NCBI GenBank assembly: GCA_950295325.1
Contig: OX485805.1
Span: 7,192,501 to 7,256,500 of the forward strand
Source: Polytrichum commune
Lineage: Eukaryota; Streptophyta; Polytrichopsida; Polytrichales; Polytrichaceae
DNA: 64,000 bases
Direction of reading: 5' to 3'
Shown piece by piece: positions 1 through 13,960 of this stretch (its first letter is position 1; each line of letters begins with the position of its first letter). The notes beneath the pieces were generated by a model, which searched no databases, was not told the DNA's origin, and was given only the letters and a program-made list of their open reading frames with translations. The translations under genes and the position numbers were made by a program.

Positions 1-450
1 GAATCGAAATCATATTGAGAGGATGACAAAGGAGGTGGCCAACGAGTGGGCCACATCAAGCACCACATGAATCTCGAGCAATATTAAGATTGCATCTCCA
101 TAACCATACCTCATCGATTAAAGGGAATTCTAAATGATGGCATAAGATTTACGGAAATGAGAACTTGAATAGGAAATGGGTCAAACACTTCAATGAATGA
201 ATTCATGTAAATCATGTGTACTCTATGAATTGAATGGTTTGTGGAATCTCGTAAAGATACTTTAGCGAGGAGTAGGTTAGGAATACATAAAGTCTTGAGA
301 CTCTTTCAAATTGAAATATTGAAATATAATTGAATAGAGGAAGAATAATACGTAGGTCATTCAATCCATGAAAGAGATAAAAATAACTCCATAAGTTATT
401 AGAGATGAGAATGATTTACATGCATGAACACTTAGCTTTGACATTAATGT
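1..450. other. AT-rich DNA without a recognisable gene
   Basis: I see no supported ORF, RNA gene or repeat boundary here. The stretch ends at the target duplication of the transposon that begins at 459. Confidence 0.5.
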
Positions 451-458
451 CTTAGGGA

Positions 459-1781
459 CTCGGGGGGGGGGGGGGGCACTGGCAAAAAATGTAGGAACTA
501 CGTGCGATAAAATATAGGGTCTTGTATAAAAATTTGGCGTAAAATTTGTAAAATTATTAGATGTAGTATAGGGTGCTTTGGGATTGTGAAACATGATTAT
601 ATGTAATATAGCATTTGACAAAACATGATTAAATTACCTAAGTGGTACATATAAAATAGCATGGACAAAAAGCGATAGTTTCAAAAATTAAATACTTTGC
701 CACCAAAATATGGCATGTTCTATATAGGAAGGGTTCAAAAGATAAGGGTGAAGGTTGGTACTAAGTGGGGCAATTGTTGGCAACCCATTGACTTGATGAA
801 ACGTGCAGTCCAGAACGGAAATAGAGAGACGCTCTTCCCAACTACTATGGCTTACCTCCATTGGTTAAAAAAACAGCTGGGTCTCAACAAATATAAGTAT
901 GTTGAGAGTGATTGTGTGTGGGTTGATGTGGATGCTATTCTCTCAACAGTGTCTCTAGTAACAATGAATCAACTAGCAAAATCTACACCTTAGATGAGGT
1001 AGATGCAAACTCATTGAATGAGTTCATTTCAAATAAAAAATAAAACCTATTAAATTTGTACTATCTCACACGTGTGGAGATATAATTTGGAGAAAGGGTT
1101 GAATGATCATTAGTATACCTTGAAATCTGTAGTAGCCATTTCAGTTCGATTACCCTCATATCTCCCACATGTGTAAATGGTAGCCTAGCTAGTTTAGGTG
1201 GATTTTGCTTGCATGGCGTGGGATTTTCTACCAATGTGTAGGATTGGAAGATCAAGGCATCAATTGTAGGGCTTCTGCAAACCTTGTAAATGTGACTTTG
1301 AGACACATGTGGCTGGCCTGTTCCCTAAGACCTCAAGGTTTCTAACTGTGTTATCCAACACAACTTTCATTCGTTGGCTCGTGTTGCTTAATGACATGTA
1401 ATTGCAATCTTTTGTTGTTATTGTTTAGTGTTTTGCTTTGCCCGGACTTCAGTGTGACCCTGAACCCTAAACCCTAGTAAATGTTTGTTTCTCTTACTTT
1501 GTACACGTGCTTCTAACGAGAATTCTACTGTATCATACACTTTAAGGAATGGGGGCAATCAGGGGGGAAAAATTGCATATAAGTAATATAGGGTACCATA
1601 AAATCAACCATCCAAGAATTTATAATTACCAATAGGGTGCAAATAATCACAACAATTTACCATTATTTCAAAAATTAGCATCCCTTATAATCCTTTCTCA
1701 TAGGTAAATAGCCCCCATTTTAATAGATCATTATCGCAGGTGTATGCAAAATATACAAGGGAATGCCCCCCCCCCCCCGAG
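459..1781. mobile_element. Non-autonomous DNA transposon with poly-G terminal inverted repeats
   Basis: The left end reads CTC followed by 15 G (462-476). The right end is 13 C (1766-1778) followed by GAG, so the two ends are inverted copies of each other. The 8 bases CTTAGGGA lie directly outside both ends (451-458 and 1782-1789), a perfect 8-bp target-site duplication. Inside each end is a related subterminal motif containing TGCGATAA. The interior has recurring ATATAGGGT-type motifs and a short telomere-like AAACCCTA stretch near 1463-1476. An 8-bp duplication is typical of hAT elements; assigning it to hAT is inference. No transposase is encoded. Confidence 0.8.
715..993 (+). CDS. Small ORF of unknown function inside the poly-G transposon
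   Basis: The reading frame runs from the ATG at 715 to TAG at 991-993 (92 aa) and stays open 18 bases further upstream. The product is basic, starts MFYIGRVQK and has a tryptophan-rich first half. I do not recognise a domain. It sits wholly inside the 459-1781 transposon, so it may be a captured host exon or a chance frame. I see no promoter or convincing splice sites. Treat it as doubtful. Confidence 0.2.
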   Translation: MFYIGRVQKIRVKVGTKWGNCWQPIDLMKRAVQNGNRETLFPTTMAYLHWLKKQLGLNKYKYVESDCVWVDVDAILSTVSLVTMNQLAKSTP

Positions 1782-1789
1782 CTTAGGGA

Positions 1790-2439
1790 ACATCAACTTG
1801 AATTCTAAAGGCACTGACTCACTTAAGAATTATTGGACAAGGATATCATATTGAGATTGGAAATTAGTAAACATATGATCACAGATCCTCAACATAGTTC
1901 ACATGCCAACCCATACCCCATTGTATGCCAGACTATCTCTTCATATGTGAACGCTACATGAGGTATAACTTAGAGCCATGTCATGATGATGGATGAGTTC
2001 ATCCATTGACCTTCTCATGTTAGCAACTTGTGATGCAACATTGTCATGGATGATTGCTATATTGTCTACTGTGATATAGTGATAACGTACATGTTCATAT
2101 TAAACGGTTTTGTTAATTCCCACTACATTCCCAAGGGTAAGATGCTTAAGCTCACTATTGGCAAGTGTCATGTGTTTCATTTTAATATTTAAGAGGAATA
2201 CATCCTTAAGCATACTAATGGCATGTCATGTCAAGATTTTAATAAGTGCACTCAAACACCCAGTGTCATGTGACGACACTTACGGTGTTGTTGTTAATCT
2301 GCAATATAACATAGCATACCCTTCAAAATAGGGGTTTCCATTACTGTGGGTTTTTCATCTGTATATTTGGATGAAAATCCAATGTAAGGCAACGAAAGTA
2401 CAATAATATTACAGTGGGCCACACTAAAAATGAACAACA
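1790..2439. other. AT-rich intergenic DNA
   Basis: No gene or clear repeat boundary is seen. The only longer frame (2110-2331, 73 codons) has no recognisable protein features. Confidence 0.4.
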
Positions 2440-2616
2440 GGACTTAGAATAATATAAGGTTTCAAAAATGGCAATGGACATCTTTAAAGTACTATAGGGT
2501 ATGGAAGAATATGTAATTTGGAATTATATGAAATGCAAGGCTTTTTCTATTAACCCAAGGTTGAAAATGCTAATGAAATAAATAACCCTAAACCCTAAAC
2601 CCTAAACCCTAAACCC
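2440..2616 (+). repeat. Partial copy of the poly-G transposon interior, ending in telomere-like repeats
   Basis: The sequence around TTTAAAGTACTATAGGGT matches the stretch at 6350-6526 and the reverse complement of part of the 8276-8619 element. It ends in about four and a half AAACCCT units (2584-2616). An inverted relative lies at 2755-2935, so the two can pair as a large foldback. Confidence 0.65.
2584..2616. repeat. Interstitial plant-type telomere repeat (AAACCCT)n
   Basis: About 4.5 tandem AAACCCT units. Unique-looking sequence lies on both sides, so this is not a chromosome end. The same unit ends a related repeat at 6495-6526. Confidence 0.85.
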
Positions 2617-2754
2617 ATTAGTGTGGTAGTCCACTTAGTGTTGGACCTTACTAGTTGCTCGCCATCTATTTGTGTCCTACTCATATGCAATTAGGAGTCT
2701 AGCAACAACTAATTCTCTTTTATCGCGCATCCATGTGCAAACAACCACTATTTT

Positions 2755-2935
2755 ATATGGGGTTATTACTTTCAATTTTTTTCTTCACATGCTATGATTA
2801 TGTAGTTTTCTTAGTCGGGTTAGTAGAAAAGGGCCTTGCATTAATTACAAATCCAAATAATCGATTTGTTCCATACCCTATAGTACTTTAATGATGCCCA
2901 GTGTCATTTTTGACACCCCATATTATATTTGCTTT
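2755..2935 (-). repeat. Inverted copy of the poly-G transposon interior
   Basis: The reverse complement contains TTTAAAGTACTATAGGGT and AATGCAAGGCCC..TACTAACCC, matching 2440-2616 and 6350-6480. Together with 2440-2616 it forms a head-to-head inverted repeat with a spacer of about 140 bp. Confidence 0.6.
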
Positions 2936-3358
2936 AACATGGGCGGACGTTAAATACCCCCTCACGAACTTTTGGAGGTATCTAATCTGGGTTGGGGCAA
3001 TCTTGTAGAGAAAATTTCTAAACCCGACCAAAAATTGCATTCTTGAAGGCCGCTTGACTACAAATCCCATATTGAGTGCACTAAAATCCGCTTGACTTAC
3101 CATAAATAACTTATATTTGTCATTCTAATGATAGATTAGTGCAAGTGTTTATAAGAGAATAAGGTATAAATAAATGATATGTTATTTGGAATTAGACTCG
3201 TGGGACAATGTTATAGATGGGGTATATATTACTGAGAAAATCATAAGTTTCTGACTATAGCCTATCTGAATTATTTAATAATTTATCCTCATCACATATT
3301 GTATTATCTTTCAAATCACATAGTGTATAACCGTTACTTTTAAATAAATATAATTATA

Positions 3359-3421
3359 TGATACTAATACTAATACTAATACTATTATGCAAATACTAAT
3401 AATAACAATACTAATACTAAT
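3359..3421. repeat. ATACTA-type microsatellite
   Basis: Imperfect tandem ACTAAT units, interrupted near 3384-3395. Confidence 0.75.
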
Positions 3422-5765
3422 ATTGAATTGAGTTTTTTAGTTCACCAATTTATCATAAGGTGATATATATTATTGTGCCATATTACAAATGTTTGAACAA
3501 TCACACATGTGCAAAATAAATGAATTATGAACAAAAAGATGTCTATGACAACACTTCATAATTATATATTGCACACATTGATATCTTACAATATTTATCA
3601 AAATAACCATGTGAAATTCAAAGCCACATCATGGCCTTGGAAACATCTCATGGGAGGTTGGAAAATAGGCTTAGAGCATCCAAGGCCACATCATTGCCCC
3701 TTGCCAACAAATTAATATTTATAAAATAACTATGAGGGAGAAAGTAGGTCTTACATGCCAACTCGGAGGTATTTCACTAAAGTAAGCTCCATCCGAGCTT
3801 CTTGATGGACTCATCCGATTTTTGTTACCGGATGACTTTACTTGAGTGCCACGAATCCCCGGCCATTTCAAGTGGGCTTGTACGGTTAAGGTATTTGTTG
3901 ACTTTCATATTTACGGCCTCGAATGTCCTTCCCAAAGTGCACATCTAAGGGTACTCATGTAAGTATAACCATGCTATCACATAGAGCCTTATTATAACCT
4001 AACATAGTCAATCGCACACTCTCAAAATATTTTCGGTCATTGTAGGGTCGATAGTGCACATGGATTGACAACCTAAGTACCAAAGTACTAAATTTGAGCA
4101 ACAACAAATCCCACATGGATGCAACATCTATGGCTACACGGTCCAAAATTGAGCTTTTATATTCTCCTTAAAGGTGATTTCAAAAATACTTTATGGCAAG
4201 TCCACAAGTCATACCCATGGATTGGAGCATGACATTATGGAAAGGTTACTTAAAGGTTACTCAAAGGTATTTGACCCCGATTTTAAAGAGTAGTTTAATA
4301 ATCTCTAAATAGAAATCTCTAGTCCTATTGTTACCAATGCTTTCGACTTCCCCTCCCTTGGTCTCCCTCCCCTTAGTAGATGTTGTATTGAATCATCCCA
4401 TGATACCTACCTATGGTGCAACAATTAGAGTTTATTGCATTGAGTACTGACTGTTGTTTTGAGAGCTCACATGCTACATAACTAAATAAATTCATTTTTT
4501 ATTTTAGCAATTAGTTTAAAAAGACAATTAGTTAACAAAGATAATAAATTCATTTTTTTATTTTTTTTCCCAAAGCGGGTCACGGGGGCTTATGAGTGGG
4601 GCTATGTGCGTACATGCACATGAAGGTTTTACAGGGGCATGGGCATATGGTTTGCAAGGGTTAATGTATGTGGTTGGGTTCATGCAAGATATGAACCCAA
4701 AATGATTCATACGGACTGGTGTAATGGGTCAGGATGGCACATGCCCAAACTAATAAGGTATGTGGGGCTCATTGATAGTTGTAGTTTGAGGAGGGAAACT
4801 TGACTAGGTTGGTATTCTAGCACATGGAAATTGATTTTCATTTGAGCGGAGAAACCTTGGTTTTTATATACATTGTTAGTGTGAACCATAATTTGTTGTA
4901 TTTACATTGAGAGTTCATGATGCCATGTTCTTACTATTCAAACCTTGCCCAAAGTTTTCTTAATTTATGGAGATTTTGTTTTTCATTTTTCTAGCATCCC
5001 ATGATTAAAAATCAATCAGTCTAGTCAATCAACAACTAAAGTGCGTCAGTACAAGGATGGCCACGTTTCAACTTGTGTTTTGGGCAACGAGCCGAATCTG
5101 CTACCCCCCCCCCCCAACCACCATTGCCACTCCACATGGGAGTGCTCAGTCCAAAAGATGCTTGAAGATACCGGCAAAACCTTCACCAACGTCAGAGAAC
5201 TCTATTTTGTTTCACCAAAACGATTGGTACATGAAAGTGTGCCCTAACTTGGGCTAGACTAATTTGGGGTCAATTCAACTAAATAGGGTTTCCAATAAAC
5301 TTTGAAAAATAACCTCCTTACTACATACTAGTTTAAAGTTTCATTGTTGGATGAATGAGAGTAATATGCTCGTATGCGATAATCCCATTTCGTTGGCCAA
5401 AAAAACATTGATATGTATATAGGGCCTCACATTAGAAGCCCAAGCCCTTGAGGATGTAAATGCTATCACAAATTCCCCATGCGTAGGCAAAGCCTATCAA
5501 TCCGAGGGCAAAGACAAGAAAACATGCTCACATACAAGCACACCCAACATTCATCCAAAAACATTTTATTTAAAAATTCAATTGGTTTGACACCGTAATT
5601 AGCTTCAAAGTTACGGAATTAGTCTAAACCAAGGGGGTTTAGTTTTATATTTTCTGTCGGATCGATGAGAGGTACTCTTGAATGTGAGGTTTTTCTCCAC
5701 ATATGGAAGAGCACATCCTGAAAAGGGGAAGAAATTTTTATTAGGAAAAATTGAGTATGTTTGCT
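3422..5765. other. AT-rich intergenic DNA with one poly-C run
   Basis: No supported gene. A run of 12 C lies at 5104-5115 and resembles the right end of a poly-G transposon, but I could not find a partner end or target duplication. Frames over 5041-5257 are made by this run and are not convincing. Confidence 0.4.
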
Positions 5766-5815
5766 CTATAATGTACATGAGTTTGGGGGTGGTGGGGGGG
5801 GGGGGCTCATTATAG
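5766..5815. repeat. Poly-G run flanked by inverted 8-mers
   Basis: A 12-G run (5794-5805) is bracketed by CTATAATG (5766-5773) and its reverse complement CATTATAG (5808-5815). It could be a decayed poly-G transposon end, but the subterminal motif of that family is absent. Confidence 0.45.
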
Positions 5816-6265
5816 GGCTTATTGCCTTCCTTTTGGAAGCCGGGCTATGTTGGGTGCAACTATCTATTTGGGGCATCCAAGTTTGGGAAGAGGGGGTTGA
5901 CATTGCAACCATTGTATCTCATTGCATCTATTAAGGGGTTGTATGTGTTTGTTTTGTATTGTTGTTTCAATGTATGTGTTGTGGCATAAGGTTTAGGTTA
6001 AGGAGTATATGTCCTCTAGCTGCATTGGGAGTTCCAATCACACACGTGGTGTCCAAACTAAGTCTACCCAAACATGTGCATTATCCAAGGACATGTCAAA
6101 TGATTGGAGTCGCGTTTTTCTACAGCCTTGTCGATCGGTCAGCCTTAAGCCATCATTTCGACATGGGATCTCAAAACGGTCATCCAAAGGGCATAAGTGG
6201 TGGGCCCATAAGTATATAGCGTAAAACCTAGGAAGTGCAGCTAGAAATGTAGTGGACACATACCA

Positions 6266-6526
6266 GGGGGGGGGGGGTTGTGATGTATTGGAGTAGAAAT
6301 ATATGTGCGAAAAATTGAGAGGGTATATGGGGACGTAAAATGAACAAAATGATTTAGAATAATATAGGGTGTCAAAAATGGCGTTGGACATCTTTAAAGT
6401 ACTATAGGGTTTGAAATAATAGGTAACTTGGAAATATAAGTAATGCAAGGCCCTATCCTACTAACCCAGAGCTGAAAATGCTAAGGAAATAAATAACCTT
6501 AAACCCTAAACCCTAAACCCTAAACC
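6266..6526 (+). mobile_element. Partial poly-G transposon ending in telomere-like repeats
   Basis: It starts with 12 G (6266-6277). The next 60 bases match the reverse complement of the right end of the 8276-8619 element, including TTGGAGTAG and TGTGCGAA. The interior carries ATATAGGGTGTCAAAAATGG and TTTAAAGTACTATAGGGT. It ends in AAACCCT units (6495-6526) instead of a poly-C end. No target duplication is found, so the right end is lost or replaced. Confidence 0.65.
6495..6526. repeat. Interstitial telomere-like repeat (AAACCCT)n
   Basis: About four units, the first degenerate. It lies at the same position in the repeat as the array at 2584-2616, so the units travelled with or were added to this element family. 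Confidence 0.8.
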
Positions 6527-6615
6527 GGTTTATAAATGGATCAACATCTCTAGCGTAGTGCTATAAATTTGATGATTTCCCCAGTGTAAATAGGGCATTG
6601 ATGCCCGAGTTGGCC

Positions 6616-6680
6616 ACATATATATATATATGTATATATATATACATACATACATACATATAGACACACACACACATATT
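6616..6680. repeat. TA / CATA / CA microsatellite
   Basis: Compound array of TA, then CATA, then CA dinucleotides. Confidence 0.85.
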
Positions 6681-6802
6681 TGTGGCAAAGGAACTCTATG
6701 GTATGTTGCTACATGTCCAACATCATGATTGATAAGAATGACAAGTGATGCTAAAAGTTGAAAAATGGGTTGTGCAAATCAAAGAGGTGCCATGAAAATG
6801 GA

Positions 6803-6828
6803 CTCTCTCTCCCTCTCTCTCTCTCTTT
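6803..6828. repeat. CT microsatellite
   Basis: Run of CT dinucleotides with one interruption. It creates the serine/leucine-rich frame at 6758-6967, which is therefore not accepted as a gene. Confidence 0.7.
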
Positions 6829-7119
6829 GGTGGCATTTTGCATGTTTCAGTCAATACATGCAAATTCATTTTGTAACATGTGGCGCTTTCAAGTCAAAGA
6901 TGGATTAACCCTAGGCTTGAGCTATTGGGAGAAGGGTCGAATTGTCAAATTGTGTATAATGCCATAGTAGGAGTCTAGGTAGGTATTGAGTCATCACATC
7001 CTATATCATACTATTAATGGGGGTGGGCGAGGCAAGGTTGTGGCAAGTTGACAAGGCTGGGCATGGTCACAAATCATTGGTGCTAAATTTGAGGTCACAT
7101 GAGAAAGTTATTAAATGGG

Positions 7120-7390
7120 CATCTTGGATAACTTAACTTGATAAAACCACCACAAGCCATTGTGAACCGTTGATGATGAGGTTGAGGTTGTTTGGGAAGA
7201 GTGTTCAACAATCATCTTGGATAACTTAACTTGAAAAAACTGCCGTGAACCATCGGGGTTTAGGTTGAGTTTGAGGTTAAGGTTGAGATTGTTTGGGAAA
7301 GGTGGTCCACTTAACTTCATAATTATAAATTCAAGGTTTTATGTTTTGATGTAATAATTCTCAATGGTCATCTTCGATAACTTAAGTACA
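7120..7390. repeat. Decayed tandem repeat with CATCTTGGATAACTTAA units
   Basis: The motif recurs at 7120, 7213 and, diverged, 7369. The GTTGAGGTTGTTTGGGAA segment is also duplicated. Spacing is irregular (93 and 156 bp). Confidence 0.6.
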
Positions 7391-8267
7391 TGATTGTGAC
7401 CTTAGGGTTTTGATGTTTAATGTTTCAAAGTCGTGAACAAAACCAAGAGGTTTATAAAGGAAAGTGACACATACTCCTTTGGTAAGATGAATCCACAAAA
7501 GTGCAAACTCAAATTCATGATTTAACAAAGCAATTTAGCGATAGGTTCTTCCAATTTCATTGGAAATATGAACCAAGTTCATTATTTAAACAACCAATTT
7601 CAGTACATGTTGTGAACAATTTCATGATTTGGTACCCATATTCAAAACTTCACAAAATCAATTTTAGGAAATGCATAACTCTATTTCACAAAGAACATTA
7701 CATCATGTATAGGATTATCCTAGTAAACAAATTGCTCCCTATTCCGCACAACTATACACTACACTCCAAAAACGTTATGCGCTTTGCTCACGCTACCAAC
7801 ACTCTTCCCATAATCAAACCCCCAACTACACTACGTACACTCTCAAACCCATGAGATTACGCACTCCAACTATGTTGGGTATGAGTTGTTTGCTTTGATG
7901 TACAATAATCAAAGACCAAAGGAAAAATGACATTGCTTGCTTCTAACTCCAAGGTAGTGTAATGAAGACCAAAGAAAATTTGACATCAAGGCTAGAGGCT
8001 TCCAAGTAAATACAAAACAATGAGAAGGCAAAGAATGCGAAATGAGGCGGCGAGAATTTGAGAAATAAAAAAACCATAAAGTGTGAACTTGATATGGAAG
8101 ATTCACAAAGTTGATAAAGATAAATGTCCACTATCATGAAATTGAGGTGTGCCACATGTCAAGTCGGTTAAGAAGAATGATCATGGGGATACAACAAAAC
8201 ATTTGCTCATGAAATACAACATTGGACAATGGGGTGGAGCGAGGCAAGTTGACAAGGCTAGGAAAGT
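7391..8267. other. Gene-free AT-rich DNA
   Basis: Frames at 7501-7854 and 7909-8155 lack recognisable domains, good start contexts or splice structure. I see nothing supportable. Confidence 0.35.
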
Positions 8268-8275
8268 ATAAGTAT

Positions 8276-8619
8276 CTTGGGGGGGGGGGCAGTGTGTTAA
8301 AAAGTTAAGGATATAGGTGCGAACAACCATTATTTTATAGGGGGGGTGTTACTTTCAATTCTCTTATTTTTCTCACAATGATGCTATCATTATGTAAATT
8401 TCTACTTTGGGTTAATAGAAAAATGGCTTGCATTACTTATAATTCCAAATTACCTATTATTCCATACCCTATAGGACTTTAAAGCTGTCGAGCATACTGG
8501 TTGATACCCTATATTACTCTTAACTCCATTTATAATTTTTAGCCCCCATGTTTTTAAAATACCCTATCATTTGTTCGCACGTATATTGCTACTCCAACCA
8601 ATGACTACCCCCCCTCGAG
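8276..8619. mobile_element. 344-bp MITE of the poly-G family
   Basis: The left end is CTT plus 11 G (8279-8289). The right end is 7 C (8608-8614) then TCGAG. The flanks are ATAAGTAT (8268-8275) and AGAAGTAT (8620-8627), an 8-bp target duplication with one mismatch. Subterminal motifs with GTGCGAAC lie inside both ends in inverted orientation. The interior, read on the minus strand, matches 2440-2616 and 6266-6526. It is a short deletion derivative of the same family as 459-1781. Confidence 0.75.
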
Positions 8620-8627
8620 AGAAGTAT

Positions 8628-9263
8628 ATGAAACTATTCCGAAGTTGCAACACAATGGGCCACAATGCTAGTTGCTCTAAAAGGAGCAGGCTAGTGTTGA
8701 GCTTCAAACCTTGAATTTGGGTGCAATCATATTCCCAAATTAGACTGCAATCATGAAAGATAATAGTAGCTTTGACCAGGTTATCCTTGCACCTTGCCCA
8801 CAAAATAGGCATCCTATTCACAATTATAAAATATAAAGGAACTATAACTCTGGTGAGAGAATCCCATGTCGTTGTTAACTCTTGCGGATGAAACAATACC
8901 TAACCTTCATACTATTCATTTTGCAAGGGTGCCCATCATAAGTGGTGGACCTGTTATGTGTGCACATGTCCTTATGTAATTTTGGCATGAGTATGCTTGG
9001 TAGTGGTATGAGGTGTATGCAAAGGTTATCCAATGATCATTGGTACCGCAAAGACTCTCCTTCGCCTTGTAACAAATTTTCACTCCATGTACATACGATG
9101 TAGAACCCCACTACCGAAGGTCATCATTATTCAATATGAGGAAGGTTAGAACGTGATTAGCTAATAGCGATAGGAATTGGAGGGAATGACGTCTATGTAC
9201 TTACGAATTTGGAGGGAATGCCTTGTACTTCCTCATGAGAAGTTGATGGCCATGCTCACGACC
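8628..9263. other. Intergenic DNA upstream of the three-exon gene
   Basis: No gene is seen (the frame at 8567-8896 overlaps the MITE end and has no recognisable domain). The 3' part is the probable promoter region of the gene starting at 9342. Confidence 0.4.
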
Positions 9264-9273
9264 TATATAAAGG
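9264..9273 (+). promoter_or_regulatory. TATA box for the three-exon gene
   Basis: TATATAAAGG lies 78 bases before the ATG at 9342, which allows a start site near 9295-9300 and a 5' leader of about 45 nt. The start codon context AACCATGG is favourable. Confidence 0.6.
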
Positions 9274-9341
9274 CCACCATTTGGAGGGTCATTTCTTTCT
9301 CCTCATTTGAGTCCACCCCCCTTCACCCTTGAGGAGCAACC

Positions 9342-12300
9342 ATGGAGAGCGTGCCTCACATGAGTGAAGAGGTTGGTTTTATAACCCCAATGTGCATCCA
9401 CTTTCCCACGGGTGCACCCGTGACAACACTCTGGCCGTACCCCTCCTGTACGGCCAGTCTGCCACGGGTGTTCACCCGTGGGAGACTCTGGCACCCGGTT
9501 TGGGGCCCCCACGGGTGTTCACCCGTGGGAGCTTATGGTTTTTATTTCGGTTATCCTAGCATATGTCAGAATAGAAGTTATCCATATGCTCATGTGTGTG
9601 ACAAACTTTCTAGTAGTAGATGTCAGCATGGTAGCCTCCCACGGGTGAACACCCGTGGGAGAATCCGGCACCAGCATGGAAGCCCCCACGGGTGTTCACC
9701 CGTGGCAGTTCATGATTTGTATTTTAGTTCTCCCTACATATGTGTGGTTATAAGATAGGCATGTATCATGTGTGTGACATACTCAATAGTTGTATATGCA
9801 ATTATGCTTATTTGTAAATTTCCTGCTGAGTATGTGAAATATGTTGTCAATGGGTAATTGGTACATATTATTACGAGTTGGGAGTTTCGTGATGCATTAT
9901 GATAAATGATGACGATGATATTCGTTAAACTGGAATGTTGACACTATCCTGAATGGCAACTATTTCGCTAGCACTTGGGCCAGCAGATGTGACACCTACA
10001 TGCATAGTAATAATTGTACACAAGTAAGTGTTAGGGGTGATAGTTTTGGTGTTTGGGCTTTGTGGAAACTGGTAATAAGGGTCATTCTCCCAATGGGGAT
10101 ATGATAAGTAACACATACTTCACTTGAGTTGTGTGAAGTGAGGTGTAAAGCTCACCCCTATATGAATGTAAATATTCTGTTGAGATGTCAATGTTGTCCC
10201 CCACGGGTGAACACCCGTGAGCTTCTGGTCAATGTGTGTTGACATACTTTGATATCGATGTTCAGATTCCACATTACATTGGACTGTCGAGGACGGACTT
10301 GAAGGGGAAGGCCGTTGTGCTCTTTGATGATGAGGGCCATGCTTTGTGTGATGGATTGATTTGCAACACAAATCCGTTGGATTGTGTTGACAATAGCATC
10401 CTAGGGGCTGAGGATGTTGGAGTTATTATCTTGAACCCAACTGACAATGTTATTTCGCAAGATTGGGAGAATACGCTGCACCGATGGCCACTTTCACTCA
10501 CCAAATTTGAAGGACATACATTAGCGGAAATATTGTTGGTCCATCATAATGCGACCCGCGAAGTTCAAAGTCATCGGCGCTTGCTTGGAAAACGCCAATA
10601 CAACACTGTGAGGATGTGTGCACCTCGGCCACCTGGGAAGAAAATTTGGGGAGCCACTGAGGAGCATGCGCGGATGTTATCAGCGGTGGATTGTTGTTCC
10701 GAGCATTGTTGCCAGGTATTCCCAAGGCCTTTGTTGATGAGTATTCGGGAACACTACTTCGCATTGCCATTCAATGCTCGGAAGCTCATAGCCCTGTCGG
10801 TGTTCCAATCGATCCAGAAACATGAGCACAACGGACGTGAAATGGTGCAGTTGGAAGGGAGAACAATATGCACTCGAGCATGGATGAACATCTATATGAT
10901 ATCAAGGGCACAATATAATAGGAACAAGGCTGAAAGCTTGATGGGGGTTAGATCTCGAGATCATGGAAATACAGGAACTAGAAAACCACGGGCGAATACA
11001 GTGCAAGCACGAGCCACCCTTGGAGTATTGGTTGAGGGTAGGGCGGACGCCATGCCCCATATGACTCGGACTCTTCCAACTGGTGAGAAGATAGGGACGG
11101 AGATGCTCCCTGTGGGAACAACATGGTGCAACCTATTGCAGGAAGTGAACAACTTGGACGGAGACCTAGGGTACACGCCTATCTCCACGTCCACCTTCAG
11201 CCGCCTACATCGACAACATTTCAAGCAGTATGTTATAAAGAGCCCCGGCGACAACTTCTCGCGTTGTGGAACTTGTGCAGCATTCAAGGATTTGTTGCGA
11301 ATACACACAAAGAACACAACTGGTCACTTGGCCATCTCGAATGCTAGCCTTCGTCATCTAACATTGCAGGAGGCTCATAGAAACAGTTACTATAAAGATA
11401 GGATTTTGTCAAAGTATGCTCCCAATGAGGTGCTTTGTATAATCCATGACAAAATGGATTATGGGAAAACGGCTCTTCCCGTCTTCGCGCACAAAAACAA
11501 ACGTGTTGACAAATACGAGCGATTCCCCATATCCATTGCGGGGATGATTGCACATGGTCACTCAGATGTGAATTATGCGCATTATGTCCTTGATATGTAC
11601 CCATCCGATGCCAACTTCACTATCACCTCGATGATGAAGTTGCTTTGTCAACTTGAGGTACAACCTGTTTGCTCTAGTAGATACATTCCGATTTCGTCCA
11701 TAGGTGATCCTTTACACGACGCATTGGTGGTTGGTGTAGAGAAGTGTTCAGGAGTACTTCCCTTGCCACCGCCCGCAAGTATTCCTCCTACAGGTTTGCC
11801 ACCCCTCCTCCTTGTTCAAATGGACAATTGTGCGAAGGACAACAAATCAAAATACAACATGTTGTTTTGGTCAGCTCTGACTGCAAAGGGAATTTTTCGG
11901 GAAGTCAGGGTGTCTTTCCTTATTGTTGGACATACGCATGAGGATGTGGATGCAATGTTTGGGAGGTTTGGACAAAGGCTGAAGATTGAGGATTGCCATA
12001 CACTCCCAGACCTCATGGCATCGTTCATGGCTGCTGGGGAACCCACTATTGTCCCGTCCTTAATCCACGAGGTTGCAGATTTCAAGGAATGGGTGAAGGG
12101 ATACTACAATGAGTATGGTCAAGATCGACTTATTGGGCATTCCAAGGCGCACCAATTCCGTTTTTATGTAGATCCTCAAGGAGTGCCATTGATGCAGTAC
12201 AAAGTGTATTGTACAGATCCAAGTTGGGTGCCTGATGGAGGAATTGCTCTTTGGAAGGTGGACCCTATCACAAAGAAGACCATGGTCCCAACAGGTTAAT

Positions 12301-13215
12301 GGGTCCCTTGTTTGTATTGCTTTGGAAGTGCACTAGAAAATACATGGTGTGAAGTATGTGGCCCACGGGTGATCACCCGTGGGCAGTTAGTCCGTGGTAT
12401 TGCTCCGAGCTCATTGTATGTTTGTTTTTGTAGGGTGCCCCCGTCCCGTTCCAAAAAGGGAGATGAAAGATTCCGTGAACATAAAGCTTGGGGTGCAAGG
12501 TTTTATTAAGTATTGGAAGGATACGGCAGATCAAGATAGTTCGGGTCAATATATGGAGTCCATTGCACCAACAATTTTATATTGGGAGAATGTGCTTGCG
12601 GCTATGGATCAACCTTTACTCCCAACTCCATCTGAACTTAGCGAGCCATTCTGGCCAGCTACACGGTTCTCCATTGCACCAACCCTCCATGTGGATAATG
12701 TGCATCTACTTGAGGAAAACATCACTGATTATGCTTACGTGGGGCCAGCTAGTTCTCGACCTGTTGAGACCTTCCGTCCCGGCGCACATATCAGGATTGG
12801 CCATTATGTGTTACTACGTCCTAGTGAGGATTGTCCTAATCCAGTGTGGATGGGACGAGTGATTTCTGAGCCGAATTTGGCACATATCGGTCCTAATCCT
12901 CGTTCCATTGAGATTGTCTATTATGTACCGGTCCTTGGCCAAAGGAACAAGAAGACCTTAGACGAACGTTATGAGGAATGGGACACGGCAAAATCTTTTC
13001 GATGGACGAGGCTCAAGGACTATGCACCACAACATCAATCCCTAGATTGTGTTGTGGCATCATGGGCAAGACAAAGGAATGCGTCCGATGACAATGTTCT
13101 CATCCCAGCTCGGCAAATTCTTTTCGCAAAGGATAATTTAGATCGATGCACTAGAGGTGAGAAAATGACTGATGGAGATACTTTCGAGGATGGGGTACCA
13201 ACAGAAGACCTCTAG
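9342..13215 (+). CDS. DUF7869-like transposon-derived protein, three exons, 946 aa
   Basis: Predicted exons are 9342-9371, 10266-12294 and 12434-13215. Both introns are GT-AG and every junction keeps the frame (2841 nt including stop). Exon 2 to 3 is strong: the frame stops 5 nt past the donor and resumes in phase. Exon 1 is inferred from TATA box, ATG context and phase. Visible features: Cys343 and Cys346 in FSRCGTC; HDKMD at 404-408; QMDN with Asp530; HTHEDVD with Glu569 and Asp572. The spaced acidic residues suggest an RNase H-fold (DDE-like) core; that is inference. The C-terminal third has a compact segment around HYVLLRPSEDCPNPVWMGRV resembling an SH3/BAH-like fold. From memory the central block matches the DUF7869 family of moss, lycophyte and alga genomes. 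No internal stop or frameshift, and coding DNA is richer in GC than its flanks. CCCACGGGTG palindromes fill the introns. Confidence 0.75.
9407..9422. repeat. Palindrome copy 1 (no spacer)
   Basis: Perfect 16-bp palindrome CACGGGTG/CACCCGTG in predicted intron 1. Confidence 0.9.
9431..9457. repeat. Separate hairpin between palindromes 1 and 2
   Basis: Arms CTGGCCGTAC (9431-9440) and GTACGGCCAG (9448-9457), 7-nt loop. The sequence is unrelated to the CCCACGGGTG palindrome. Confidence 0.85.
9462..9481. repeat. Palindrome copy 2 (TT spacer)
   Basis: Arms CCACGGGTG and CACCCGTGG with TT between, in predicted intron 1. Confidence 0.9.
9508..9529. repeat. Palindrome copy 3 (TT spacer)
   Basis: Arms CCCACGGGTG and CACCCGTGGG, spacer TT. 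Confidence 0.9.
9636..9661. repeat. Palindrome copy 4 (AA spacer, longest arms)
   Basis: 12-bp arms CTCCCACGGGTG and CACCCGTGGGAG, spacer AA. Confidence 0.9.
9686..9705. repeat. Palindrome copy 5 (TT spacer)
   Basis: Arms CCACGGGTG and CACCCGTGG, spacer TT, in predicted intron 1. Confidence 0.9.
9706..10201. other. Rest of predicted intron 1
   Basis: AT-rich, no separate gene seen. Minus frames at 9925-10116 and 10120-10371 are not convincing. Confidence 0.4.
10202..10219. repeat. Palindrome copy 6 (AA spacer)
   Basis: Arms CACGGGTG and CACCCGTG, spacer AA, 46 bp before the predicted acceptor of exon 2. Its right edge creates the in-frame TGA (10218-10220) that closes the exon 2 frame upstream, which supports an intron here. 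Confidence 0.9.
12361..12384. repeat. Palindrome copy 7 (perfect 24 bp) inside intron 2
   Basis: 12-bp arms GCCCACGGGTGA and TCACCCGTGGGC with no spacer, near the middle of the 139-bp intron 12295-12433. Confidence 0.95.
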
Positions 13216-13269
13216 ATTAAAGTTGCCTTGCTCATTCCTGGGTATCTACGGGTGGACTCTCATGGGTGG

Positions 13270-13293
13270 GCTAGATGGTTGACACCATCTAGC
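13270..13293. repeat. Hairpin in the 3' flank
   Basis: Arms GCTAGATGGT (13270-13279) and ACCATCTAGC (13284-13293), loop TGAC, 54 bases after the stop codon. It could form in a transcript 3' UTR. Confidence 0.8.
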
Positions 13294-13480
13294 ATGTTTG
13301 GAGCTCAATTTTAATTTTGTGAGCATTAATTAGAGAGCCGTAGACATTGACATTTGTCCCACGGATGTTCAAACTACCACTTTTAAAGGCATCTTTTTTT
13401 GTGAATTTTCATGTGCATTGTCATATTAGCCAACATGTTTAATATGTGGGAGTCGTCCAATGTCGTCCAATGTTTAATAG

Positions 13481-13502
13481 TCCACGGGTGTTCACCCATG
13501 GA
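13481..13502. repeat. Palindrome copy 8 (one mismatch)
   Basis: Arms TCCACGGGTG and CACCCATGGA, spacer TT, downstream of the gene. More decayed relatives of the half-site are seen near 13246 (ACGGGTGG), 13355 (CCCACGGATG) and 13607 (TACGGGTA). Confidence 0.8.
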
Positions 13503-13960
13503 GTGTAGGCACAATCCTTTTGTCTTCCTTGATGGGATCCTCCATATTACAATTGATTGTTTGCCCGGTTTCATTGGAACACTTGGTTTGTGGAGGCTAA
13601 ACCCTCTACGGGTATTCTCTCGTACAAAAAAATCAATCATTGCGTTCCCATCACGTTCCCCACATTAAAATGAGCGGACCATTTGTCTCATTTTAGTTAA
13701 TATCCCCATCTTAGTAACAACTACAACTCTTGGTAACTTTGAGATTGTGCATGTGACTTGAATTGATGCCACCCTCACTAATTGGTATATGTAGTGTAGT
13801 TCCCTCCCAAACATTCCACCCAATAGATATTTGAGCAATTATGACTTTTGCATGCATGATCTTAACAAAATCATATAAGTACCCCACCCTTACCTACGTT
13901 CTGATGCTTGCACAATCCAATCCCACCTTCGCCCAAAACCAACACCGCATTTGTAATTGG
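13503..13960. other. 3' flank of the three-exon gene
   Basis: No gene is seen. It leads into the duplicated segment that begins near 13965. Confidence 0.4.

Follow-up and report, generated by a model that had tools for sequence, protein, structure and literature searches.

VANC proteins, which are encoded by the VANDAL transposons of Arabidopsis, are outlined in the literature as family-specific anti-silencing proteins that are associated with many short motifs in non-coding DNA, including introns and upstream regions (PMC5735166, PMC10398659). These motifs are described in outline as multiplying through tandem repeats that expand and contract (PMC5735166). Furthermore, a giant Sola-1 element of Ectocarpus is outlined as carrying a ParB-like and DNA methyltransferase gene on the opposite strand, and the authors of that account propose that accessory proteins bind their own giant transposon and modify it epigenetically (PMC12477816). 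Here we describe a giant terminal inverted repeat (TIR) transposon of Polytrichum commune whose right-hand part lies in a 64-kb stretch of DNA (contig OX485805.1, positions 7,192,501 to 7,256,500; "the window" denotes this whole stretch). The transposon contains a DUF7869 gene and a short palindrome that recurs in both of its halves. We propose, with moderate confidence, that a dimeric protein encoded by the element, most likely the DUF7869 product, recognizes these palindromes, and that the likely job of such binding would be self-recognition.

Palindromes of the DUF7869 gene and their transposon

The window contains seven exact matches of CACGGGTGN{0,4}CACCCGTG spanning positions 9407-12381, compared with a mean of 0.00 matches in 100 dinucleotide shuffles of the window, of which 0/100 reached seven. 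A scan with an NN spacer and up to three mismatches adds one place at 13483-13500 (one mismatch) and nothing else new. A first-pass annotation of the window had reported eight palindromes of the form CACGGGTG-n(0-2)-CACCCGTG in the introns and 3' flank of an intact gene and none elsewhere in the window. Each of these points holds: the total is eight (seven exact, one with one mismatch), and the palindromes are placed as it had described, with intron 1 holding six, the 139-bp intron 2 one and the region 3' of the stop codon one. The longest arms reach 12 nucleotides (nt) at 9636-9661, and the intron-2 copy is a perfect 24-mer at 12361-12384. The gene is indeed intact and consists of three exons separated by GT...AG introns of 894 and 139 bp, encoding 946 amino acids without an internal stop. 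Its splice sites are predicted, and similar sites are present in other aligned copies. The gene and its palindromes, which have no strand, are arranged as follows.

9342..9371, + strand, exon 1 of the DUF7869 gene, 10 codons, predicted splice sites
9407..9422, no strand, palindrome 1, spacer 0, intron 1
9462..9481, no strand, palindrome 2, intron 1
9508..9529, no strand, palindrome 3, intron 1
9636..9661, no strand, palindrome 4, intron 1, 12-nt arms
9686..9705, no strand, palindrome 5, intron 1
10202..10219, no strand, palindrome 6, end of intron 1
10266..12294, + strand, exon 2, holding the DUF7869 domain (PF25273, E 2.3e-46)
12361..12384, no strand, palindrome 7, perfect 24-mer in the 139-bp intron 2, orthologous in seven other aligned copies
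12434..13215, + strand, exon 3, including the stop
13246..13265, no strand, decayed palindrome with four mismatches, 3' flank (CCACGGGCGAAAGCCCGTGG at the same place in L018, a copy of subfamily 677)
13482..13501, no strand, palindrome 8, 3' flank, one mismatch, 208 bp from the right end of the transposon

The intron-1 copies are partly tandem duplications, with a 47-bp spacing and a 130-bp stretch repeated at 76%, and thus not all of them are independent.

Near-identical copies of window region 8900-13900 are numerous in the genome, and most end at about position 13709. Three genome copies align at 99.6-99.7% over positions 1-13709 and end there, and their upstream homology continues beyond the window start. 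The terminal 22-mer has 97 genome matches with at most two mismatches (47 forward and 50 reverse), and these form 37 inverted neighbour pairs within 65 kb, with a median distance of 25,073 bp; four of these pairs exceed 40 kb and probably reflect nesting or chance. A 4-bp target duplication is found in all eight copies with both flanks read (six by script and two by eye from the flanks), and the eight duplications differ in sequence. Because its inverted ends are paired and flanked by 4-bp target duplications, the window element is a giant TIR DNA transposon (class II), with the following landmarks.

1..13709, + strand, right-hand part of the 25,046-bp TIR transposon (whole copy C3:7181164-7206209)
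13688..13709, + strand, right terminal inverted repeat end TCATTTTAGTTAATATCCCCAT (the left end, at C3:7181164, is its reverse complement)
13710..13713, + strand, 4-bp target site duplication CTTA (the same CTTA lies left of the left end)

Two short runs of AACCCTA, the plant-type telomere repeat, are located inside the middle of the transposon (window 2584-2616 and 6495-6526). A literature search on titles and abstract starts retrieved no account of such an element beyond PMC12477816.

Between L009:8097 and 1896, the left half of the transposon contains exon-like frames that are open on the opposite strand and would constitute one gene, judging from their order and strand. The last of them matches an NIF/FCP1-like phosphatase (E 1.9e-10), and positions 1-9400 of the window hold no frame of at least 140 amino acids. 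The two frame sets lie on opposite strands, and the element thus has two outward-pointing gene units. Gene and palindromes thus both belong to a 25-kb transposon whose second gene, which carries the same sites, lies beyond the view of the window.

In the window's own copy, for which L009, L010 and the window provide gapless cover, a scan allowing four mismatches finds 24 sites with a two-base spacer and one spacer-0 site. The element's set of sites thus goes well beyond the eight of the window. The left half contains 16 sites, 241-8728 bp from the left end, and the right half contains eight, 208-4228 bp from the right end; the central 12 kb, between 8.7 and 20.7 kb of this copy, contains none in the same scan. 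Seventeen of the 24 sites are perfect. On the left side, an array of seven sites lies 5' of the first frame, and the others lie between frames and 3' of the last frame. The site at L009:6749 overlaps the end of a frame at the point where similarity to sister subfamilies stops and is therefore probably intronic. Another site, at L009:4549 (C3:7185548), lies within a left-gene frame without stops in the five copies covered by this comparison: the own, L007, sub2, sub3 and 677 copies (the 689 copy is not among them). The palindrome is retained in the own, sub2, sub3 and 677 copies although its surroundings are acidic and fast-changing, and it may be coding. The absence of palindromes from exons consequently holds for the DUF7869 gene but not for its partner, where a site stands in an open frame.

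Could the palindromes be subterminal transposase sites like those of CACTA or Ac elements, where a bound transposase joins the two ends for excision? Sites in both halves and none in the central 12 kb would provide an array on each end's side, and the nearest sites are 208 and 241 bp from the ends. However, perfect sites occur as far inside as 8.7 kb on the left and 4.2 kb on the right, and the arrays seen in two other DUF7869 families, F2 and F3, lie 5' of the gene. Moreover, the four sites nearest the ends (208, 241, 432 and 444 bp) carry 1, 3, 2 and 4 mismatches, whereas 17 of the 20 others are perfect. Because the terminal sites are the decayed ones, end recognition becomes less likely, and we consider it an unlikely explanation that deserves to be kept in view.

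Throughout the genome, 835 exact TG..CA sites, 208 CG..CG sites and 37 hybrids are found, compared with 0 for each in a reversed-pattern control. Lists of palindrome places comprise the first 50 places each, those of families and proteins the best 80-150, and per-element counts are samples. Among the 50 places listed for the palindrome of the window's family (F1), all on C1, 38 lie between paired F1 element ends, four in an interrupted copy and eight in a dispersed repeat, termed X; none lies outside F1 elements and X. The four sites at C1:19839099-19881007 were assigned to the interrupted F1 copy by their 130/47 spacing and by a DUF7869 match at 19880422. The listed places are not evenly spread over the genome; an even spread with no link to the gene family would have refuted the first-pass annotation.

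Symmetric divergence of the arms between subfamilies

The arms of the palindrome read GGGTG..CACCC in F1 and GGGCG..CGCCC in the sister subfamilies 689 and 677 (87% protein identity over exon 2), with both arms differing together at most sites. T..A is present at 108 of 116 sites in F1 copies, and C..G at 22/24 sites in 677 and 19/27 in 689; these counts take sites with identical flanks once and exclude the near-identical F1 copies L001-L008. Methyl-CpG decay can supply such arm changes. Random decay, however, would leave TG or CA in either arm, and the strict TG..CA order thus needs selection or descent.

Elsewhere in the arms, one-sided departures number 76, against a single two-sided and matching one; the X repeat was counted apart (three two-sided). 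This pattern resembles decay from a fixed word, unlike compensatory pairing. It bears directly on the idea, raised in the first-pass annotation, that the palindromes form RNA hairpins influencing splicing. All sites of the DUF7869 gene lie in introns or the 3' flank, and the symmetric difference preserves base pairing, as hairpins would demand. The departures indicate, however, that sequence is kept and not pairing alone, and sites also lie near the transposon ends and inside the left-gene open frame. RNA hairpins are thus disfavoured, and we regard them as highly improbable.

Eight aligned copies, drawn from six groups, share orthologous intron-2 and 3'-flank sites. The other gene copies that were read carry the palindromes, whose absence there would have counted against the first-pass annotation; alignment of the exon-1 stretch gave no match in the 689 copy. 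In the sub2, sub3, 91%, 689 and 677 copies, respectively, the intron-2 arms are identical to those of the window copy at 18, 17, 18, 17 and 16 of 18 positions, and the rest of intron 2 is 90, 80, 96, 77 and 76% identical. The two arm differences at the intron-2 site of L018 (677) form a symmetric pair. In the 3' flank, the corresponding values are 18, 16, 18, 14 and 14 of 18 for the arms versus 88, 80, 93, 76 and 71% for the surroundings. The spacer-0 site near exon 1 is also found in the sub2, sub3, 91% and 689 copies; it retains TG..CA even in 689 and is degenerate in 677. This palindrome, at 9407-9422 of the window, perhaps has another role than the rest.

Copies of the element also differ in length. 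Of 29 long rows, 18 match the window's 4.8-kb stretch without interruption (the other 11 are the window itself and 10 rows with another start or end), and the lengths of these 18 deviate by 0 or 1 base (four copies), +47 to +49 (eight), +94 (one), -47 or -48 (four) and +18 (one). The +47 copy at C1:48452758-48477718 contains one extra intron-1 palindrome at the 47-bp spacing. Since the differences occur mostly in units of ~47 bp, palindrome-bearing units are gained and lost, as is outlined for the VANC target motifs (PMC5735166). These comparisons speak to a further proposal of the first-pass annotation, a tiny palindromic mobile element that inserts beside the gene. Many copies of similar size in differing surroundings are what such an element would leave behind. 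However, the sites are orthologous between copies and across subfamilies, the copies differ by tandem units, and the 50 C1 places listed all belong to F1 elements or X repeats. The proposal is largely contradicted, and we give it scarcely any credence.

Palindromes of other DUF7869 families and the X repeat

Other DUF7869 families have palindromes of their own. In F2 (a 502-amino-acid frame; L019, L020, L032 and L036), GGTTTGGGTCGNNCGACCCAAACC or close forms are arrayed 5' of the gene in 13, 20, 15 and 15 copies, respectively. This palindrome has 3138 places in the genome, and 22 of the 50 listed are within 6 kb of a listed DUF7869 match. Because 78 is a multiple of three, several stop-free frames run through the 78-bp arrays of F2 (L019:5935-7001 and L020:247-1891), on both strands, the longest with 355 codons in L019 and 539 codons in L020. 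In F3 (539 amino acids; L031 and L037, with the upstream pieces L042 and L043), GGTTTACGGACGNNCGTCCGTAAACC or close forms are present in 3, 4, 3 and 6 copies. The F3 palindrome has 254 genome places; 48 of the 50 listed are on C1, and 29 of those lie at most 5 kb from a listed DUF7869 match. Eight of the 11 F3 proteins listed on C1 have a cluster within 5 kb, always on the 5' side, another has its cluster 17.8 kb upstream, and at a 91% variant (L059) the core is shortened to TTTACGGACGNNCGTCCGTAAA. The core is kept and the spacing changed in all three 91-92% variants of F3 that were examined (L059, L060 and L061). The F2 and F3 proteins are 66% identical to each other and each ~50% identical to F1, and the F2 and F3 palindromes have an outer GGTTT in common.

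F4, which gives a fuller domain match, has five palindrome copies at L034 and one at L039, and none at L033 with L041 or at L035 with L040. The five palindromes at L034:5536-5979 are of type GTGAGGCANNTGCCTCAC and lie 2.4-2.9 kb upstream of the F4 gene frame. Overall, a repeated palindrome is present at 13 of 15 DUF7869 test loci, the exceptions being L033 and L035, both F4; as a control, positions 14-64 kb of the window, divided into seven 7-kb tiles and a final 1-kb tile, contain none.

The X repeat has its own palindrome, AGAGGCCTCGGNNCCGAGGCCTCT, with 566 exact genome places, and also carries the F1-type palindrome. The six X loci L021-L026 are alike (6/6), each with the core of the X palindrome. 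At another X locus, L038 (C1:47960800-47968500), 33 palindromes of type AAGAGGCCTCGGATCCGAGGCCTCTT are found, often 128 and 179 bp apart. At C1:13974505-13996837, the X places listed suggest mirrored arrays around a long frame that is Ty3/gypsy-like by eye (L058).

The palindromes of different families provide a means of weighing two further explanations. A host protein, such as a transcription, replication or silencing factor, might read the sites and be recruited by the element. The F1-type palindromes in the X repeat and the arrays at the 5' ends of genes would fit such a factor. However, the palindromes differ among DUF7869 families and follow subfamily descent, whereas a single factor would favour a common site, and the 50 C1 places listed include none beyond F1 elements and X. 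A host reader is accordingly judged decidedly unlikely. Alternatively, the palindromes could be neutral satellites, that is, units that grow by slippage and are homogenized without function. Tandem units of ~47, 78 and 95-97 bp occur across the families, and the number of 47-bp units varies among copies, as slippage would produce. Single sites far from the arrays (in intron 2, between left-gene frames and in the open frame) nevertheless keep their arms and join the symmetric difference, although slippage cannot homogenize sites so placed, and the F3 variants differ in spacing and flanks around a constant core. We therefore hold a neutral satellite origin to be very unlikely. Related elements of the genome possess their own palindrome versions, which would fit a marking of each element's DNA for a protein that the element itself encodes.

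A proposed dimeric reader and comparison with known systems

A fixed word for each family, a two-fold symmetry with a free two-base centre, a symmetric difference between subfamilies and a mostly non-coding location together point to a dimeric, sequence-specific protein. Which protein would read the palindrome? As far as seen, DUF7869 is the part that palindrome-bearing families have in common. F2 and F3 contain DUF7869 but, as far as seen, not the left gene, which makes the DUF7869 product the best candidate binder. Distant homologues of the left gene lie within 60 kb of 161 typed F2/F3-type DUF7869 positions in 3 of 49 cases, versus 2.3 expected, among the matches listed, which speaks neither for nor against a pairing of the two genes in other families. 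In Pfam, the two large right-gene frames and six left-gene frames match only DUF7869 and NIF above the cut-offs, with no DUF1985 and no MuDR. Comparison of the left gene with the PDB (phmmer, three-sequence profile) gave nothing credible, and its scanned frames have no DNA methyltransferase match. A ParB identity of the left gene, considered because of an NGQH..A motif noticed by eye, was rejected, as neither the left-gene frames nor two distant homologues have a ParB match. A genome scan with PF02195 gave four matches, all on the small contigs C10, C12 and C23, which are possibly bacterial contamination of the assembly.

The DUF7869 protein is intact in the window and open in many of the listed genome copies. 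DUF7869 proteins have conserved D/N/H motifs that are reminiscent of an RNase H-like nuclease. None of 57 candidate stretches in viral contigs was confirmed as a relative. Among the papers searched, none has the name DUF7869 and none the three literal palindromes.

Of the roles that the first-pass annotation had listed, that of binding or autoregulatory sites fits best, given one arm word per subfamily, the symmetric arm difference and the other words of other families. In the mechanism that we propose, the DUF7869 product would bind the palindrome as a two-fold symmetric dimer. The sites are scattered over non-coding stretches of the two gene units (arrays on the 5' side, introns and 3' flanks) and multiply there as tandem units; they would allow the protein to mark copies of its own family. 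Such marking might keep these copies transcribed against host silencing, in a VANC-like manner, or regulate them. Anti-silencing or self-regulation would be the best analogy at hand; protein binding, DUF7869 as the binder and an anti-silencing outcome are what we infer from sequence comparison.

Several observations weigh against recognition by a dimeric DUF7869 protein. The 3'-flank arms are hardly better kept than their surroundings in 689 and 677, and the intron-2 site of 689 is a hybrid, so that the symmetry is not absolute. The site counts are not independent events, because the element copies are young and related, and the site scan, which tolerates few mismatches, favours intact sites. 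Among the matches listed, 28 of the 50 F2 places and 19 of the 48 F3 places on C1 have no listed DUF7869 gene nearby, and F4 has an array at only one of four loci examined. The X repeat has the F1 palindrome and another one without a known DUF7869 gene, and such arrays are thus not exclusive to DUF7869. As for the protein itself, no DNA-binding domain is recognized, a profile of DUF7869 proteins finds no solved relatives (best E 0.32), and a single-sequence structure model of exon 2 alone is too poor to use, with a mean predicted local distance difference test score (pLDDT) of 32.5.

A broader and more tentative view, which we put forward as a possibility rather than as our expectation, is that DUF7869 transposons form an unrecognized superfamily. 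In it, lineages would have a private symmetric address word that is read by their own protein and stands many times in non-coding, and perhaps once in coding, DNA; word and protein would co-diverge by symmetric substitution, as an independent invention of a VANC-like system, and elements such as X, which carry the word of another family, would pirate the protein of that family.

If recognition by the element's own protein is true, the element would provide an independent second example of transposons addressing themselves via repeated family-specific words, and the palindromic form predicts dimeric binding. The sister subfamilies, with 87% exon-2 identity and one symmetric base difference, would constitute a natural specificity swap, and a few residues should explain the switch. 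The co-change of protein-site pairs would become directly testable with these subfamilies.

How does the element compare with described transposons? As far as the published outlines go, it resembles VANC/VANDAL in having motif arrays in non-coding DNA, in a motif that differs among families and subfamilies, and in motif units that expand and contract as tandem repeats. The site here is a 20-28 bp palindrome, unlike the 9-base motif of VANDAL, which is outlined as arrayed in one orientation. The VANC protein, a DUF1985 protein, binds its motif and removes DNA methylation. The present element instead has a DUF7869 gene and a 4-bp target duplication, and the scanned frames contain no DUF1985 or MuDR match. 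CACTA/EnSpm elements have two element proteins, many short repeats on both sides that include TnpA subterminal sites, and a 3-bp target duplication. Two element proteins (predicted ones here) and many short repeated sites on both sides are common to that group and the present element. However, the ends here are ATGGGGATATTAA and not CACTA, the duplication is 4 bp and not 3, and the sites reach beyond the subterminal few hundred bases. Sola elements make a 4-bp target duplication, as does the present element. Like the Sola-1 element of Ectocarpus, as outlined by its authors, the present element is a giant DNA transposon that has a second, opposite-strand gene, whereas its left gene is NIF/FCP1-like, with no ParB or methyltransferase match in the scanned frames.

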